NCBI GenBank assembly: GCA_030827315.1
Contig: JAURER010000023.1
Span: forward strand, 1 to 41,501
Source of the DNA: Gemmatimonadota bacterium
Lineage (GTDB): Bacteria; Gemmatimonadota; Gemmatimonadetes; Longimicrobiales; Gaopeijiaceae
Direction: 5' to 3'
DNA length: 41,501 bases
The notes under the pieces are model-generated. The model saw only the letters and a list, made by a program, of their open reading frames with translations. It did no database searches and was not told the DNA's origin. Position 1 is the stretch's first letter. Each line of letters begins with the position of its first letter. Positions 4,411 through 16,400 of the stretch are shown in pieces. A program made the translations under genes and the position numbers.

Positions 4411-7098
4411 TCAGTTGCCGCCGGTGAGCACCCACCGGTCGGGGTCGAGCACGACCTGGTCGGGGCGGGGGCCGGTCCATCCGAGGCGGACGGTGGTCTC
4501 CCGCTCCCGAACTTCGATTCTCTCCCGCACGGTCCGGCCACCGGCCGTCAACTCGACCTCGACCGGCACGCGGAACGTCGGCCAGTCCGCGCGCTGTACC
4601 TGCCGGACCGTGAGATCCACGAAGCCGTCGGGACCGTCACCAGCGGTCCACGTCCACTCCGTTTCGAAGGTCGGGTAACCCGGCTGGTAAATCCACTGCT
4701 GGAAGAACCACGACAGGTCCTGGCCCGCGACGCCCTCCATAGCCTTCTGAAAATCCTCCGTGAGCACGGCCGTGTGCACGTGACGCGCATAGTACGCGCG
4801 GATGCCGTCGAAGAAGGCGTCGTCGCCGACGATCCCGCGAAGCATGTGCAGGACCCAGCCGCCCTTGGGATAGTTGTTGTCGTTGAGAAGCGCGAAGAGA
4901 TTGCGTTCCTCCGGGTCGTACACCGGGCGGTTCGCGTTTTCGGAGCCGAGGACGCGCTGGCGGCTCTGCTCCATCCTCGCCCGGAAGGCCTCGACACCGT
5001 CGGCCGCCTCGAAGAACTGGGCGCCGAAGTAGGTGGCGAAGCCCTCGGAGAGCCACAGGTGGTGCCAGCTCGCCTCGGTGACCGCGTCGCCGAACCACTG
5101 GTGGGCGATCTCGTGCGACACGGTACCCTCGATGTTGCGCCCCTCCGCGATGCCTCGCTCGGAGTAGAAGATGGCCGACGCGTTCTCCATGCCGCCGAAG
5201 CGCGTCGCGGACTGCACGTTCGCGAGCTTCTCGAAGGGGAACGGGCCGACGACCTCGGTGAAGTGGTCCACCATCTCTGCCGCCCGCCGGAAGGACGGCT
5301 CCGCCCGTTCCACGTCCTGCGGATAGACCCAGTAGGTGACCTCCACGCAGCCATCGGCGCGCCGCACGGCGGGCGCCCGTCCGCACGCAGCCAGCCCGAC
5401 GGTGCGAACCTCCAGGTCGGCGGCGCCGATCACCATGTTGTAGGGCGAGATCGGGACGCCGACCTCCCACGTCCAGGAACGCCGGTCCTCCTTCGGCCCG
5501 ATGGCGTCGGCCGGCGTGGGCGTGGGTCCGGCGGCGAGGTGCCCGTTCGCGATGACCTTCCACGCGGCGGGGGCGTGCACCGTGTAGCGCACGGTCGCTT
5601 TGTCCGCCGGGTGGTCGACGCTCGGGAGCCAGAAGCGCGTGCGATTCGGCCAGTTGTCCACGAACGCCGCGGGTTCGCCGTGGACGTTCTCGCGGATGAT
5701 CAGGCCGTCGTCGGGGACGCCCTCGTAGCGGACGGTCACCGTGGCCGTGTCGCCTGACTCGTGACCGGTCAGGGGTACGCGCAGGATGCCTTCGGCGTGG
5801 TCGTACGCGGCCTGACGGCCGTCGAGCAATACCTCGGCGACGGCGAGCCCCGAGAAGTCGAGCGGGAGGACCGCTTCGTCCTCCTGGACCGCCACGCGCA
5901 CGTCGGTGCGGCCTTCGAACCAGAGCACGCCGAACCCCAGGCCGACCTCGACCTCGTAGTGCACGACGTCGACTCCGGGCGCGTAGGGGCCCGGCGGAGG
6001 CGCGACGCCGGCGGGGATGGGCGCGGGCTCCTGGGCGGCGACCGGGTGCGCCAGCGCCGTGGCCGCCAGCACGATCGCGATACCCGTCCGCACGGCGGTC
6101 CTCCACGCCCGAGTACCCATCTCCTGGAACGCTTCGACCTCGGCGAAGTCGCGGAAGCGGCCCCAGTAACGTGCATAGGCCTGCGCCATGCCGGGACGGA
6201 GGTCGACGCGGGGGGCGACGGTGGCCTGATAGGCGCAGAGAGCCTCGAGCTTGGTGAGCATCTGGCTGTGCACGTCGACGAAGTGGGTGGGCACGAAGTC
6301 GGGTCCGGTGGTCGCGGTCTCGTATCCGAGAACCTGGCGGACTCCGGACGTGGCGGCCTGGCCAAGGATGGACGCCCTGCGCCGGTTCTCCTCACGGTCC
6401 CCCGGCGCCGGGAGGTACACGGTGGTGGGCTCGAGCTCGAGCAGGAGTCGCTCCAGGAAGTGCGCCTGTGCGTCGAGCCGACCGAACAGCGTCCGGTCGG
6501 CTCGGAGTTCTACCCCGAGGATGCCGGCGGAGGTCGACGCGGCGTTGAGCACCGCCTCCGCGTCGTCGCCTTCGGGGCCCAGGATCGGCACGATGACCAC
6601 GTGCGCACCGCTTGCGGCCGCCTTCATGAGCGACCCGCCACACCCCATGTCCGCATCGCCGAGCATTCCTTCGACGGCCACGACGGCGTCGTCACGCGGC
6701 TCCTCGGTCGGCGCGCTCCGTTCGATCATCGCGTGGACCCGGCGCACGAAGTCAGACTGAGTCAGTGGCTTGATCATTACCTGGTCCGCCCCGGCCCGGA
6801 GCGCCTGCTCTTCGTAACCGGCCTGGGCGTAGCCAGTGGTCACCAGAACAGGAACCGTGGTCGACGCTGCGCGCATGGCGCGGATGACCGCGAAGCCGTC
6901 GCTGCCCGGGAGATTCAGGTCCGTCACCAGGAGGTCCCACCCCTCGCTTCGGATCAGCTCGATGGCATGGTCGCCACGATGCGTGTGAACGACGGTGTAC
7001 CCCGGCATCGCATCGAAGAACGCCTCGACCAGGCTCGCCTGGTGGGCGGCGTCCTCGACGTAGAGGACGCGAAAGGTGGAGGGGCGGTCGGCACTCAC
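4411..7098 (-). CDS. In-frame fusion: receiver domain, degenerate PIG-L domain, signal-peptide-like segment and M1 aminopeptidase
   Basis: One open frame of 895 codons with no internal stop. Residues 9-126 form a CheY-like receiver with acidic pair E15/D16, phospho-acceptor D60, T87/T88 and K110. Residues about 135-310 resemble PIG-L/LmbE deacetylases, but HPDDE reads MLGDA and the later HPDH reads EENR, so metal ligands are lost. Residue 327 is a Met followed by a typical Sec signal peptide. The rest is an M1 zinc aminopeptidase with GGMEN, HEIAH (662-666), a zinc Glu 19 residues later (685), and a YPKGGW tyrosine region. A cytoplasmic receiver fused to an exported peptidase is odd. Two adjacent genes that lost a stop, or are read separately from 7098 and 6120, is at least as likely as a real fusion. 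The GTG start at 7098 gives SADRPSTFRVLYVED. The gene follows the MFS gene by 31 bases. Confidence 0.75.
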   Translation of the reverse strand: MSADRPSTFRVLYVEDAAHQASLVEAFFDAMPGYTVVHTHRGDHAIELIRSEGWDLLVTDLNLPGSDGFAVIRAMRAASTTVPVLVTTGYAQAGYEEQALRAGADQVMIKPLTQSDFVRRVHAMIERSAPTEEPRDDAVVAVEGMLGDADMGCGGSLMKAAASGAHVVIVPILGPEGDDAEAVLNAASTSAGILGVELRADRTLFGRLDAQAHFLERLLLELEPTTVYLPAPGDREENRRRASILGQAATSGVRQVLGYETATTGPDFVPTHFVDVHSQMLTKLEALCAYQATVAPRVDLRPGMAQAYARYWGRFRDFAEVEAFQEMGTRAWRTAVRTGIAIVLAATALAHPVAAQEPAPIPAGVAPPPGPYAPGVDVVHYEVEVGLGFGVLWFEGRTDVRVAVQEDEAVLPLDFSGLAVAEVLLDGRQAAYDHAEGILRVPLTGHESGDTATVTVRYEGVPDDGLIIRENVHGEPAAFVDNWPNRTRFWLPSVDHPADKATVRYTVHAPAAWKVIANGHLAAGPTPTPADAIGPKEDRRSWTWEVGVPISPYNMVIGAADLEVRTVGLAACGRAPAVRRADGCVEVTYWVYPQDVERAEPSFRRAAEMVDHFTEVVGPFPFEKLANVQSATRFGGMENASAIFYSERGIAEGRNIEGTVSHEIAHQWFGDAVTEASWHHLWLSEGFATYFGAQFFEAADGVEAFRARMEQSRQRVLGSENANRPVYDPEERNLFALLNDNNYPKGGWVLHMLRGIVGDDAFFDGIRAYYARHVHTAVLTEDFQKAMEGVAGQDLSWFFQQWIYQPGYPTFETEWTWTAGDGPDGFVDLTVRQVQRADWPTFRVPVEVELTAGGRTVRERIEVRERETTVRLGWTGPRPDQVVLDPDRWVLTGGN
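6031..6120 (-). other. Internal signal peptide and probable separate start of the M1 aminopeptidase
   Basis: The ATG at 6118-6120 opens MGTRAWRTAVRTG, then a hydrophobic stretch IAIVLAATALAHPVAAQ with an AxA-type cleavage site. This is a complete Sec signal peptide inside the longer frame. Read from here the peptidase is 569 residues, a normal secreted M1 size. An AGGAG lies directly against the ATG, too close for ideal spacing. Upstream the PIG-L-like part ends at about EVEAFQE, a natural domain end, so no sequence is left over between the two proteins. Confidence 0.6.
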
Positions 7099-7129
7099 GC
7101 TCGGTTCGGGAAGGGAGGATCGACCGACT

Positions 7130-8416
7130 TCATGTGCCGGTCGTGCGCGGCTCGGGGACGAAGAACCACACGATGAGTCCCATGGCGAGCACGGCGACGG
7201 CGCCCAGGACGGTGTTGGAGAAATACCCGACGTCGGCGAAGAGGGGTCCGGCGACCGCACCCCCCAGCGCGAAGCCCACCTGCCCGAGCGCGACCGTGAG
7301 GCTCATGAGCGATCCCCTGCGCTCGTCGGAGACGAGGGCGGTGAGCAGGGCGGAAAACGGACTGATGCGCATCGCCACGAGGATCATCGTGATGAAGAAG
7401 AACACGTAGGCTTGGACGGGGCCAGTCACGACGGACACGGTCGTGACCATAAGCATCGAAAGTCCGACGCACGCGAGCAGGATGATCTTCTTCCGTCCGA
7501 TCCGGTCCGAGAGCTGCCCGGCCCGCGGGCCGGTGAGGACATTCGCGATGCCGCCGAAGAGGAACATGACCGCGATCTGGTCTCCGGTGATCCCCACGTC
7601 TCGTTCCAGCCAGGTGGGCAGGTAGATGACGAAGATCGATACGCCTAGGAACATCATGAAGTAGGCCGCGGCGGCCCAGGCGATCTCCGGCCGGCGCAGC
7701 ATCGCCACGTAGTCCGAGGCCGCCCGCCCGACGGACAGACGATGCCGGCTCAGCCGCACGTCAGGTTGCGGCACCCGGAGCACGAGGAGCAGGACGGTGA
7801 GCGCCATGGTCACGGCGAAGAGCCAGAACGGCGCGCGGAAGCCCCAGCGGCTCGCCATGAGGATGCCCAGCGGGATCCCGAAGATCTGGCCGAACGCCGA
7901 GCCACTCATGACCCACCCCGTCGCCCATCCCCGCTGCTCGTAGGGGAAGTAGTCCCCGATGTACGATACGGCTGCTCCGCTCAGCATTCCCCCGGCGGAG
8001 CCAGCGAAGACGCGCACGGCGACGAAGGACAGGTACCCCGTCACGAACCCGTGCAGCGCCAGCGCGAGCGTCATGGTGCCGCAGCCGAGGATCAGGATAC
8101 GCCGACGTCCGAACTTGTCGGACACGGGCCCGGCGAGGATCGCGAATACGCCGACCATGATGGAGTAGACCGAGACCAGCGTTCCCAGCACCGCGTCGGC
8201 GATGTCGAGCTGATCTCCGATCATGGGCAGGATCGGTGACAGGATCATGGTCTGGCTCGCCGACGAGAAGACGAGGAGCCAGAGGGTGAAGACGATGATG
8301 TACGCCTCCGCGCCCGAGCGAGCGGGCGGCTCCCGGCGCGGTTCGGAGGGCGAGGCGGGGGACGTCGAGGCCGACGGGGCGATCGTCCCGCCGGCCCTCC
8401 GCGGGGCTTCGCTCAA
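7130..8416 (-). CDS. Major facilitator superfamily transporter
   Basis: A 428-residue inner-membrane transporter with twelve predicted hydrophobic segments. The MFS A-motif is seen in the loop after TM2 (AGPVSDKFGRRRILI) and repeated in the second half (AGQLSDRIGRKKIIL). The N-terminus before TM1 is a 40-residue polar Ala/Pro/Ser-rich tail. The TTG start at 8416 overlaps the stop of the upstream SDR (TTGA), and no better start occurs before the first membrane segment. The open frame upstream of that is the shadow of the SDR. Substrate is unknown; the family includes efflux pumps and sugar-acid carriers. It is probably co-transcribed with the SDR and the REC/M1 frame. Confidence 0.85.
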   Translation of the reverse strand: MSEAPRRAGGTIAPSASTSPASPSEPRREPPARSGAEAYIIVFTLWLLVFSSASQTMILSPILPMIGDQLDIADAVLGTLVSVYSIMVGVFAILAGPVSDKFGRRRILILGCGTMTLALALHGFVTGYLSFVAVRVFAGSAGGMLSGAAVSYIGDYFPYEQRGWATGWVMSGSAFGQIFGIPLGILMASRWGFRAPFWLFAVTMALTVLLLVLRVPQPDVRLSRHRLSVGRAASDYVAMLRRPEIAWAAAAYFMMFLGVSIFVIYLPTWLERDVGITGDQIAVMFLFGGIANVLTGPRAGQLSDRIGRKKIILLACVGLSMLMVTTVSVVTGPVQAYVFFFITMILVAMRISPFSALLTALVSDERRGSLMSLTVALGQVGFALGGAVAGPLFADVGYFSNTVLGAVAVLAMGLIVWFFVPEPRTTGT

Positions 8417-9189
8417 GCGTCCTTCCGGTCCATGTACCCGGGGTAGCGCTGGACCGTGGGCATCATGACCAGATTGAAGATGTCGACGTGATCGGGCGCG
8501 TTGGCCACGTAGACGCACGCGTCGGCCACGTCGTCGGCGCTCAGCGGGACGGTGTCGGAATACACGGATTCCGCGCGCTGCGCGTCGCCGTCGAAGCGAA
8601 CTTCGCTGAACTCGGTCTCCGTGAGGCCGGGATCGACGCTCGAGACCCGGATCCTGGTACCGAGCAGGTCGATGTTCATCGCCTCGCTCAGTGCCTTCAC
8701 GGCGAACTTCGTCGCGTTGTAGACCGCGCCCTTGGGGTAGACCCACCGGCCGGCGATGCTGCCAATGTTGATGACGTGGCCGGAGTCGCGCTCCACCATG
8801 TGCGGCAGGACGGCGCGCGTCACGTACAGGAGGCCCTTCACGTTGGTGTCGATCATCTCGTCCCAGTGGTCGAGCGATCCCTCCTGGAGTCTGTCGAGCC
8901 CCTTCGCCTTGCCGGCGTTGTTGATGAGCACGTCGGGCACGAGTCCGTTGGCGACGAGCTCGTCGACGTACCGCTTCACGGAGTCCCGATCCGTGACGTC
9001 CATGACGTGGGCGCGCGCATCGACTCCGTGTTCGGCCGCCAGTCGTTCCGCCAGTGCCCTGACCCGGTCGATGCGGCGGGCGGAGAGCAGCAGGTCACAT
9101 CCCTGGGCGGCGAAGTGCCGCGCACACGCCTCTCCGATTCCGGCGGAGGCGCCGGTGATGAGCACGCGTTTGCCTGCGAGTCTGTTCAT
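8413..9189 (-). CDS. Short-chain dehydrogenase, YdfG-like
   Basis: A 258-residue NAD(P)-dependent oxidoreductase of the classical SDR family. The nucleotide-binding motif is TGASAGIG (residues about 11-18), followed by NNAG, a catalytic Ser in NIGSIAG, and YNATK. The sequence DPGLTETEFSEVRF near residue 190 resembles E. coli YdfG, a 3-hydroxy-acid (serine/allo-threonine) dehydrogenase, so a role in hydroxy-acid oxidation or dicarbonyl reduction is plausible. The ATG at 9189 (MNRLAGKRVLITG) was chosen over an in-frame ATG 42 bases upstream because it places the Rossmann motif at the usual distance. It begins the SDR-MFS-REC/M1 run. Confidence 0.88.
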   Translation of the reverse strand: MNRLAGKRVLITGASAGIGEACARHFAAQGCDLLLSARRIDRVRALAERLAAEHGVDARAHVMDVTDRDSVKRYVDELVANGLVPDVLINNAGKAKGLDRLQEGSLDHWDEMIDTNVKGLLYVTRAVLPHMVERDSGHVINIGSIAGRWVYPKGAVYNATKFAVKALSEAMNIDLLGTRIRVSSVDPGLTETEFSEVRFDGDAQRAESVYSDTVPLSADDVADACVYVANAPDHVDIFNLVMMPTVQRYPGYMDRKDA

Positions 9190-13109: not shown

Positions 13110-13280
13110 CCGTGACGAGCCCGACAGGATTACCTCCCGGTCCGAAGAGAACGATGCCCTCTCCGGCGACGGCCGCATCGCGGGCATCCCGTGTCGCACG
13201 CGCCCCTCTGGCGCGTTCCGCCGGCGGAGTCAAGGTTGACGACCTTCCCACAACCCAAGCTCAGGATCAGGGACCTTCAG

Positions 13281-16200
13281 ATGTCGAATCGAAGAATGGC
13301 ATCCTCCGTGGTCGCGGCGCTCCTCGGAGTTCTCGCGGCGGTCTCGACCGTGTCGGCGCAGAGTAGCGTGGCGCTCGACCAGGACTGGATGGAAGGAATG
13401 CGCTGGCGCTCCATTGGGCCGGCGAACATGTCGGGTCGCGTCACCGACGTGGAGGGTGAGCCGAGCCCTTCCAAGACGTTCTATGTGGCCGCCGCCGCCG
13501 GCGGCATCTGGAAGACGACCAACAACGGAACGACGTTCCGACCGGTCTTCGACGGCGAGCGCGTGGTCTCCATGGGCGACCTGGCCATCGCGCCGAGCGA
13601 TCCCGACCAGATCTGGGCTGGGACCGGCGAGGAGGATTCGCGCAACTCGATCTCGCCGGGCGGCGGCATCTACAAGTCGACGGACGGCGGTCTGACCTGG
13701 GAGCTCAAGGGGCTCGAGGCGACCGAGCACATCGGCCGGATCCAGGTCCACCCGACCAACCCCGACATCGTCTACGTCGCCGCCCTCGGGGCACTCTGGC
13801 GCTCGAACCCCGAACGGGGGCTCTACCGCACGAAGGACGGGGGCGACACCTGGGAGCTCGTCAACTTCGTGAGCGACCGCGCCGGCTTCCTCGACGTGAA
13901 GATTCACCCTCGCGATCCGAACACGCTCTTCGCCACGAGCTGGGAGCGGGAGCGCGGGCCCTACTATCTCCAAAGCGGTGGTCCCGGCAGTGCACTGTGG
14001 AAGAGCACCGACGGCGGTGACACGTGGGAGAAGGTCACCGGGGGCGGTCTCCCCGAGACCGAGCTGGGCAAGATGAACGTCGTGTTCGCACCCAGCCTGC
14101 CTCGCATCATGTACCTGATGGTCGAGGCGGCGGCGCCGGAGGGGTCGGACGAGGACAACCTCAACGGGCTGTACCGCTCCGAGGACGGTGGTGCGACGTG
14201 GGAGCGGATGAACAACTTCAACTCCCGTCCGTTCTACTACTCAGAGGTCGCGGTCGATCCTTCGAACCCGGATCGCGTCTACTTCTCATCGCTGCGCTTC
14301 TCCGACGACGGCGGACGTACCATGCGCGACATGGCGCAGGGCGTGCACGTCGACTTCCACGCGATCTGGATCGACCCGAACGACGCGGACCGGATGGTCC
14401 TGGGCAACGACGGCGGGATTGCGATCACCTTCGACCGCGGCGGGAACTATCTCTTCCCCAACACCTTCGCCATCGGGCAGTTCTACAACATCAGCTACGA
14501 CATGGGGACTCCGTACCGGGTGTGCGGGGGACTCCAGGACAACTACACCTGGTGCGGACCGAGCCGGAAGACCGGCGGCGGCATCACCAACCACGACTGG
14601 TTCCAGGTGAGCGGCGGAGACGGCTTCGTCTCGCAGCAGGATCCGCGTGATCCGAACCGCGTGTACTCGGAGTCGCAGGGCGGCAACATGGGCCGCTCGT
14701 ACCTCGCCTCGGGCGAGCGGGAGTCGTTCGAGCGTCCGGACTGGACCGAGTCGTACCGGGCGTTCCAGGACTCCATCGCGATGATCTGGCCGGACTCCAC
14801 GCAGCCGATGCCGGGCGAGCACCGGGCCCGCATCCAGGATCTGCAGGCGCGCGCCACGGCCGACTCGGCCAGTCTGCAGCTTCGTTACAACTGGAACACC
14901 CCGTTCTTCCTGTCGCCCCACGACCCGGACGTCGTGTACGTCGGGGCGAACCGCGTGCTAAAGTCCGACTGGCGCGGTGATGGGCTCTACCCGATCTCCG
15001 ACGATCTGTCGCGCGCCGACGGGGAGAAGATCCGGATCAGTACGACCACGACGGGCGGCATCACGCCGGATGTGACCGGTGCCGAGACGTTCGCCACCAT
15101 CGTGTCGCTGGCCGAGTCGCCGCTCGAGGCGGGACTGCTTTACGCGGGCACGGACGACGGCAACCTGTGGGCGACCCGCGACGACGGCGCCACGTGGACC
15201 AACCTGACGTCGGCCACCGCGAACCTCGTTCCCGACGGCACGTACGTGAGCCGCATCGAGCCTTCGAAGCACGAGGTGGACCGCGTGTACGTGACCTTCG
15301 ACAATCACCGGCGCGGCGACTTCGCGCCCTACGTGCTCGCGAGCGAGAACGGCGGGCGCAGCTTCCGATCGATCGCAGGCAACCTGCCGACCGGGAAGCC
15401 CGACTTCGCGCACGTGATCCGTGAGGACCACGTGAACCCGAACCTGCTCTTCGTAGGCACGGACGTGGGCGCCTACGTCTCTCTCGACCGGGGGGCGTCG
15501 TGGCAGCGTTTCATGAACGGGCTGCCGACGGTGCCAGTGCACGACCTGCAGATCCATCCGCGCGACGGTGAGCTGATCGCAGGCACGCACGGGCGGTCGA
15601 TCTGGATCGTGGACATCGAGCCGCTCCAGCAGTTTACGCAGGCCGTTGCTGCCTCGGACGCGCACCTCTTCGAGCCCGCGCCCGCCTATCAGTACGGCAT
15701 GCCTCCGACGGGTGGCGAGTTCACCGCACAGCACTACTTCTGGGCGTACGCGCCGGGAGTGGGCGCGGAGCTCACCTACTGGCTGGGTGAGGCCGCGGAC
15801 GAGGCCTCGATCGCCGTCTCGGACGGGGCGGGCAACGAGATGTGGTCGCAGGACGTGACGGCGACGCGCGGGATCCACACCGTCCGCTGGAATCTACGGG
15901 GTCAGGCCGTGCCGCTGCCCCTCTCGCCCTCGGAGGTTCGCGACAGCGTCGCCATCGAGCGCCGCATCCGGGTGGTTGCCGACTCGCTCGTCGCCGCAGG
16001 CGAGGATCGCGAGGACGTGGAGACGGCCGCCAGTCGGCTGCTCAGCCGGCCCGGCGGTGGCGGAGGATTCGGGGGTGGTGGCGGAGCCGAGGGGCTCCCC
16101 TTCACGCCCGACGGCCGCTTCCTGGAGCGTCCGGCCGAAGGCGGGACGGTCGGTGGCGGCGGTGGGGGTGGTGGCGGCGGTGAGGCATCGCTGCAGCAGC

Positions 16201-16400
16201 GCATGACCGAGTTGGTGCGGCCTCCCGAGGAAGGCCGGCGCGGACGACGCTTCCGGGGTGGGGGCGGTCTGCTGCCCGGTCGTTCCGAAGCGGCGCCGAT
16301 GGCGGCGCCGGGAACCTACACCGTCACGCTCACGGTGGACGGTGAGTCGCACGTACGGACCGTCCGTGTGGGCTGGGCCCTGAGCGCGCCCTCCCGGTAG
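13281..16400 (+). CDS. Secreted BNR/sortilin-type beta-propeller protein
   Basis: A 1039-residue exported protein. Residues 1-27 are a Sec signal ending VSAQ. The body carries repeated BNR/Asp-box units (for example GGIWKTTNNGTTF, GGIYKSTDGGLTW, SALWKSTDGGDTW) and VPS10/sortilin-like propeller repeats to about residue 790, as in proteins often labelled glycosyl hydrolase or WD40/YVTN/BNR-like. No glycosidase residues can be assigned, so enzyme activity is unproven. A C-terminal Ig-like region follows, interrupted by very Gly-rich stretches (about 925-985). It is a paralogue of the gene at 21932-24661 with the same domain order. Start 13281 gives the signal peptide. A TTGACG at 13236 may be its -35. 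A strong hairpin follows the stop. Confidence 0.87.
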   Translation: MSNRRMASSVVAALLGVLAAVSTVSAQSSVALDQDWMEGMRWRSIGPANMSGRVTDVEGEPSPSKTFYVAAAAGGIWKTTNNGTTFRPVFDGERVVSMGDLAIAPSDPDQIWAGTGEEDSRNSISPGGGIYKSTDGGLTWELKGLEATEHIGRIQVHPTNPDIVYVAALGALWRSNPERGLYRTKDGGDTWELVNFVSDRAGFLDVKIHPRDPNTLFATSWERERGPYYLQSGGPGSALWKSTDGGDTWEKVTGGGLPETELGKMNVVFAPSLPRIMYLMVEAAAPEGSDEDNLNGLYRSEDGGATWERMNNFNSRPFYYSEVAVDPSNPDRVYFSSLRFSDDGGRTMRDMAQGVHVDFHAIWIDPNDADRMVLGNDGGIAITFDRGGNYLFPNTFAIGQFYNISYDMGTPYRVCGGLQDNYTWCGPSRKTGGGITNHDWFQVSGGDGFVSQQDPRDPNRVYSESQGGNMGRSYLASGERESFERPDWTESYRAFQDSIAMIWPDSTQPMPGEHRARIQDLQARATADSASLQLRYNWNTPFFLSPHDPDVVYVGANRVLKSDWRGDGLYPISDDLSRADGEKIRISTTTTGGITPDVTGAETFATIVSLAESPLEAGLLYAGTDDGNLWATRDDGATWTNLTSATANLVPDGTYVSRIEPSKHEVDRVYVTFDNHRRGDFAPYVLASENGGRSFRSIAGNLPTGKPDFAHVIREDHVNPNLLFVGTDVGAYVSLDRGASWQRFMNGLPTVPVHDLQIHPRDGELIAGTHGRSIWIVDIEPLQQFTQAVAASDAHLFEPAPAYQYGMPPTGGEFTAQHYFWAYAPGVGAELTYWLGEAADEASIAVSDGAGNEMWSQDVTATRGIHTVRWNLRGQAVPLPLSPSEVRDSVAIERRIRVVADSLVAAGEDREDVETAASRLLSRPGGGGGFGGGGGAEGLPFTPDGRFLERPAEGGTVGGGGGGGGGGEASLQQRMTELVRPPEEGRRGRRFRGGGGLLPGRSEAAPMAAPGTYTVTLTVDGESHVRTVRVGWALSAPSR

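Follow-up and report, generated by a model that had tools for sequence, protein, structure and literature searches.

A regulator gene and an M1 peptidase gene share one open reading frame without a separating stop codon in a draft genome of the Gemmatimonadota

The open reading frame and its neighbourhood

The window, which is the whole stretch of 41,501 nucleotides analysed here, is contig C60 of a draft genome of 3.07 Mb that is split into 99 contigs. On its minus strand, positions 7098 to 4411 form one open frame of 895 codons, the translation of which has no internal stop, confirming the report in the initial annotation of a single frame that joins several protein parts. In order, these are a receiver domain, a PIG-L-fold domain, a hydrophobic export-type signal, and an M1 peptidase. 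The features of the region, with coordinates in the window, are as follows.

7130..8746, minus strand: open frame holding an MFS transporter gene (MFS_1, E 1.3e-67, match from residue 155)
6121..7098, minus strand: response regulator (residues 1-326) starting at GTG 7098, with a PIG-L-fold output domain
6736..7068, minus strand: receiver domain (residues 11-121; PF00072, Response_reg, E 8.1e-20)
6121..6690, minus strand: PIG-L/LmbE-fold domain (residues about 137-326)
6094..6120, minus strand: linker (residues 327-335), the place of the stop in relatives
6118..6120, minus strand: candidate internal start codon ATG, abutted by AGGAG with zero spacer
6099..6104, minus strand: Shine-Dalgarno-like GGAGGA, 5 nt before GTG 6093
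6091..6093, minus strand: likely M1 start codon GTG, judged from the GGAGGA spacing and the length of the signal segment
6034..6093, minus strand: presumed Sec signal, VRTGIAIVLAATALAHPVAA, with the cleavage site placed by eye
4411..6093, minus strand: M1-family metallopeptidase (560 aa and stop; FGGMEN, HEIAHQW)

The third-position GC content is 0.853 in the first part, 0.912 in the linker, and 0.908 in the M1 part, and both halves align to their relatives in a single frame. A hidden frameshift at the join is therefore ruled out.

The MFS gene lies upstream, and its stop ends 31 nt before GTG 7098. A 12-codon frame on the minus strand at 7095-7133 (MKSVDPPFPNRA) opens at the ATGA of the MFS stop and closes at the GTGA of the regulator start; it may be what is left of the MFS tail after a frameshift, or else a mini-ORF for coupling. 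At the same-genus locus L006, the MFS frame, as judged by eye, continues to a GTGA overlap. Elsewhere in the window, a 1069-residue frame on the plus strand (13191-16400) has Sortilin-Vps10 and BNR Pfam matches. Searches against Rfam at gathering thresholds returned no matches within the window.

A response regulator with a PIG-L-fold output domain

Homologues of the regulator begin at the place that matches GTG 7098, and 13 of the 16 relatives in which it is paired with an M1 gene end a few codons past the residue matching the end of the first part. In the receiver domain, residues E15, D16, D60, T88, and K110 were read from the alignment, and the same E, D, D, T, and K are present in all 23 sequences that cover the five positions. 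By its acidic pair, phosphoacceptor Asp, Thr/Ser, and Lys, the first part is identified as a response regulator.

The initial annotation had described a PIG-L-like domain, and this description holds as far as family membership is concerned. No match to the Pfam PIG-L family was found in the window protein itself, and PF02585 matches 17 of 24 aligned family members at E values up to 0.01. An AlphaFold model of residues 1-330, built on alignment A1 (mean pLDDT 89.7, pTM 0.60), was compared with the PDB using Foldseek and matched the BshB/LmbE deacetylases, with 2ixd as the best hit (E 2.6e-12). Residues 321-326 form the last strand of this model, so the first protein seems to be structurally whole by the point at which the linker starts.

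LmbE-like enzymes are described as having an H-x-D1-D2 motif together with a further H (PMC4101496). The window has M-L-G-D in place of H-x-D-D, and E-E-N-R in place of the H-P-D-H of L030. In 23 of the 24 aligned proteins, including that of the window, the first His is missing, Gly replaces D1, and Arg occupies the distal His column; D2 is kept, with Glu in one. D1 is the general-base Asp, and the distal His is taken as the ligand. The motif is intact in L030 (G060), with H-P-D-D and H-P-D-H; in A1, this protein is cut by the end of the sequence stretch. Partial or frame-broken copies (L046, L048, L049, and L050) and same-genome repeats (L002, L004, L054, and L068) were omitted from A1, which likewise does not include G052, G071, and G066. 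The motif of an active PIG-L/LmbE deacetylase is thus absent from the window and broken in 23 of 24 aligned proteins, and with key zinc-site residues lost to this extent the output domain is predicted to be a pseudo-enzyme. A literature search found nothing on a response regulator with a PIG-L/LmbE output domain.

An M1 peptidase with an export-type signal

The second part matches Peptidase_M1 (PF01433) at residues 619-802 (E 3.2e-34), and Peptidase_M1_N falls just below the cut-off at residues 380-521 (24.7 versus 25.8 bits). There are 117 PDB sequences that match this part, best 6a8z, a zinc metalloprotease. On the Pfam domain and the HExxH and GxMEN motifs, it is an M1 peptidase.

The presumed signal holds the most hydrophobic 15-residue stretch of all 895 residues (Kyte-Doolittle 2.02), which is IAIVLAATALAHPVA, preceded by three arginines. 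Counted from GTG 6093, the signal segment is 20 residues long, compared with 22 in L007 and 19 in L012, as judged by eye. At both of these loci, where no regulator was found beside the M1 gene, the peptidase has a similar short signal and its own start.

Adjacent gene pairs in related genomes

The searches took in 121 genomes from the family and 154 from the order, the latter set repeating those of the family. An adjacent, same-strand pair of the two genes was identified in 16 other genomes, from eight genera of one family (G063, G102, G101, G106, G105, G099, G056, G057, G060, G048, G062, G115, G044, G047, G042, and G043). In G060 the M1 match begins 761 nt further on; the other 15 pairs are close. 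In all 16, a stop of its own closes the first gene ahead of the M1 gene, and none of these junctions is stop-free, so the stop-free state is present in one of 17 paired loci, that of the window only; the 16 comparison pairs, coming from eight genera of a single family, are not independent.

The first gene also has its own stop in 14 further genomes, in which no M1 gene lies beside it in the stretch covered, although at L042 only 411 nt past the stop are covered and the absence of M1 there weighs little. Among these 14, the first-gene copies of G104 and G107 look broken, and in L046 (G104:C5) there is apparently a frame change between residues 253 and 256 of the regulator. The neighbour check left out weaker first-part matches (G050, G051, G053, G067, G069, G072, G078, and G080), and likewise further first-part copies in G105.

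Among the matches listed for the 121 and 154 genomes, only the window and G063 have a match spanning both parts, and in G063 it contains an internal TGA. A contig scan gave 576 loci, of which the best 80 are mostly M1 relatives from other phyla; those among the best 80 that cover both parts are L068 (71 % in the best segment) and L054 (55 %). Within these best 80 of 576 loci, from which records very near the window are possibly absent, no further genome of the species was found. Phylum-wide, the first part is present at E values up to 1e-30 in 22 of 395 sampled genomes, including that of the window, all of them in the window's family.

The initial annotation had named a stop at the junction in relatives as one observation that would speak against a fusion. 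With a stop in all 16 paired relatives, the reading of the frame as a conserved fusion protein is refuted by this comparison.

The missing stop codon

A short, GC-rich gap that is free of stop codons is unremarkable on its own. The junction is unusual because the first gene's own stop is absent, yet it is present in every paired relative. In 13 of the 16 pairs, this stop lies five to twelve codons past the EVEAF phenylalanine (or the L/M aligned with it), the remaining three being G047, G042, and G043. Among the loci examined, four regulators, all of one genus (L037, L038, L039, and L041, from G047, G042, G043, and G045, respectively), carry a long C-terminal extension rich in proline, about 40 to 134 codons in length.

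In the window, codon 332 (TGG, 6103-6105) is the eighth codon after this phenylalanine, and it alone among the codons of residues 327-344 is a single change away from a stop. In G063 (L005) and G099 (L011), there is only one TGA between the two genes, which share the same phase. Since codon 332 is at the place of the relatives' stop, and since relatives with a single in-phase TGA exist, one substitution is enough to explain the window.

A less economical route to stop loss would be through an older GTGA overlap that was disturbed by an indel and a substitution. Four-nucleotide overlap starts (ATGA, GTGA, or TTGA) open into the M1 gene in 10 of the 15 close pairs, across five genera, and are lacking in the other five. 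The other frame at the M1 GTG reads TGC where relatives have TGA, and the gcc-GTG of the window resembles the gcc-GTGA junctions of L006, L033, and L037. The overlaps and this resemblance speak for such a route, which partly coincides with the main reading given below. Two events are needed where one is enough, and the frame is undisturbed up to residue 326, making it an unlikely origin for the junction.

Translation of the M1 gene

The overlaps in the relatives are typical of translational coupling. For same-strand gene pairs, overlaps of 4 or 1 nt are described as the commonest spacing, and coupling by termination and reinitiation as requiring such close spacing (PMC10666635). The window, having no stop, has no 4-nt overlap at the M1 gene and cannot use that coupling, therefore the peptidase needs its own ribosome site or arises within the fusion.

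Ribosome sites were surveyed in 220 kb of the genome plus the window, using 101 frames called crudely by third-position GC, the fused frame included, and a duplex score that takes only sites at least 3 nt upstream. GGAGG lies 4-9 nt upstream of 21 of 2042 internal in-frame start codons, GTG 6093 among them, and binding to the anti-Shine-Dalgarno sequence is as good or better at 64 of the 2042, GTG 6093 again included. GGAGG occurs at a start within the first 60 codons in only 8 of the 101 crudely called genes, and GTG 7098 lacks a Shine-Dalgarno sequence. The initial annotation had placed the internal start at ATG 6120. This codon has an unremarkable duplex score of -2.7 for sites at least 3 nt upstream, equalled by 1228 of the 2042 internal starts, and with its spacer-free AGGAG it is less likely to be the preferred start. 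GTG 6093, with GGAGGA at 5 nt, is more likely to be the M1 gene's own start; the Shine-Dalgarno argument for it is modest, being support rather than proof.

Interpretation of the junction

The frame is open, all paired relatives have stops, and the two halves, which retain their main motifs or folds, share one phase. The locus probably represents a two-gene unit, normally separate and often translationally coupled, in which this lineage has lost the first gene's stop and the M1 gene is initiated internally. The stop would have been lost by one substitution, probably at codon 332. The peptidase may still be made separately, by initiation at GTG 6093 from the GGAGGA site, and ribosomes starting at 7098 would run on to give an 895-residue fusion. 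In that product, the internal signal may become a signal-anchor that keeps the regulator inside, and cleavage by signal peptidase after VAA may separate the two products again. Loss of the stop would then be nearly harmless, because such a cut would part the two products, and this would also be why both halves look intact. The initial annotation had argued that a real fusion would bury a Sec signal inside a cytoplasmic protein, which is too strong: an internal hydrophobic segment with preceding positive charges can serve as a signal-anchor. Its list of alternatives, a lost stop or a sequence error with separate internal translation, does contain the likely answer.

The choice that is left lies between a real loss of the stop and a consensus error. 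For the latter, the organism would have the stop and two ordinary genes, and the draft assembly, in 99 contigs, would be wrong at the junction. A single changed base at codon 332 suffices, the state is confined to the window among the 17 paired loci, and a second possible frame oddity was noted by eye where the MFS gene ends (7095-7133), 30-40 nt upstream. However, nine neighbouring frames all have Pfam matches and the 895-codon frame is free of indels, which gives no visible sign of an error-ridden contig. In well-covered assemblies, substitutions in the consensus are rare. An error is considered the less likely of the two.

A genuine fusion maintained by selection would be a polyprotein that is inserted by its internal signal and that signal peptidase divides into a response regulator tethered to the membrane and an M1 peptidase for export. 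The frame is open with coding-like third-position GC throughout, no segment of the chain is more hydrophobic than the internal one, and the receiver residues and M1 motifs are retained, all of which such a polyprotein would show. It is at odds with the stop in each of the 16 paired relatives and with the rarity of matches that span both parts (the window and, with its TGA inside, G063, among the matches listed), and a well-placed ribosome site at the M1 gene would be superfluous. Selection for the fusion is thus improbable. That the fusion is in use, anchored by its signal and then cut so that an exported peptidase and a tethered regulator whose output domain is a pseudo-deacetylase arise in a fixed 1:1 ratio, is very improbable.

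As a fusion, the frame carries little weight, being found in one draft genome against sixteen relatives. A lost stop in a coupled pair does give a chimeric gene model, which could pass annotation as a new multidomain protein. Of more interest is the conserved part, a regulator, confined to one family in the phylum sample, with a PIG-L-fold output domain in which the metal site is broken, often overlapped by the gene of an exported M1 peptidase; if true, this would be a pseudo-enzyme output in two-component signalling. Literature searches found nothing on stop-codon readthrough or C-terminal extension with gene fusion in bacterial genomes and, at the level of titles, nothing to the point on internal initiation.

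Comparison with known systems

The closest counterparts are the same-genus pairs in G099, G101, G102, G105, and G106, which have the same two proteins in the same order and on the same strand as the window, with 69-76 % identity in M1 and 55-63 % in the receiver/PIG-L protein. They differ from the window in having a stop between the genes in each case and, in G101 and G102, an M1 start on a 4-nt overlap. The output domain has its fold in common with the LmbE-like/PIG-L deacetylases (BshB, TT1542; PF02585), whereas the regulator family is without their first His, D1, and distal His in 23 of 24 proteins. With the solved M1 metallopeptidases (PF01433; 6a8z), the second part shares the catalytic domain, GGMEN, HEIAHQW, and an export-type N-terminus; alone among the loci examined, the M1 peptidase of the window is in frame with a regulator without a stop between them.
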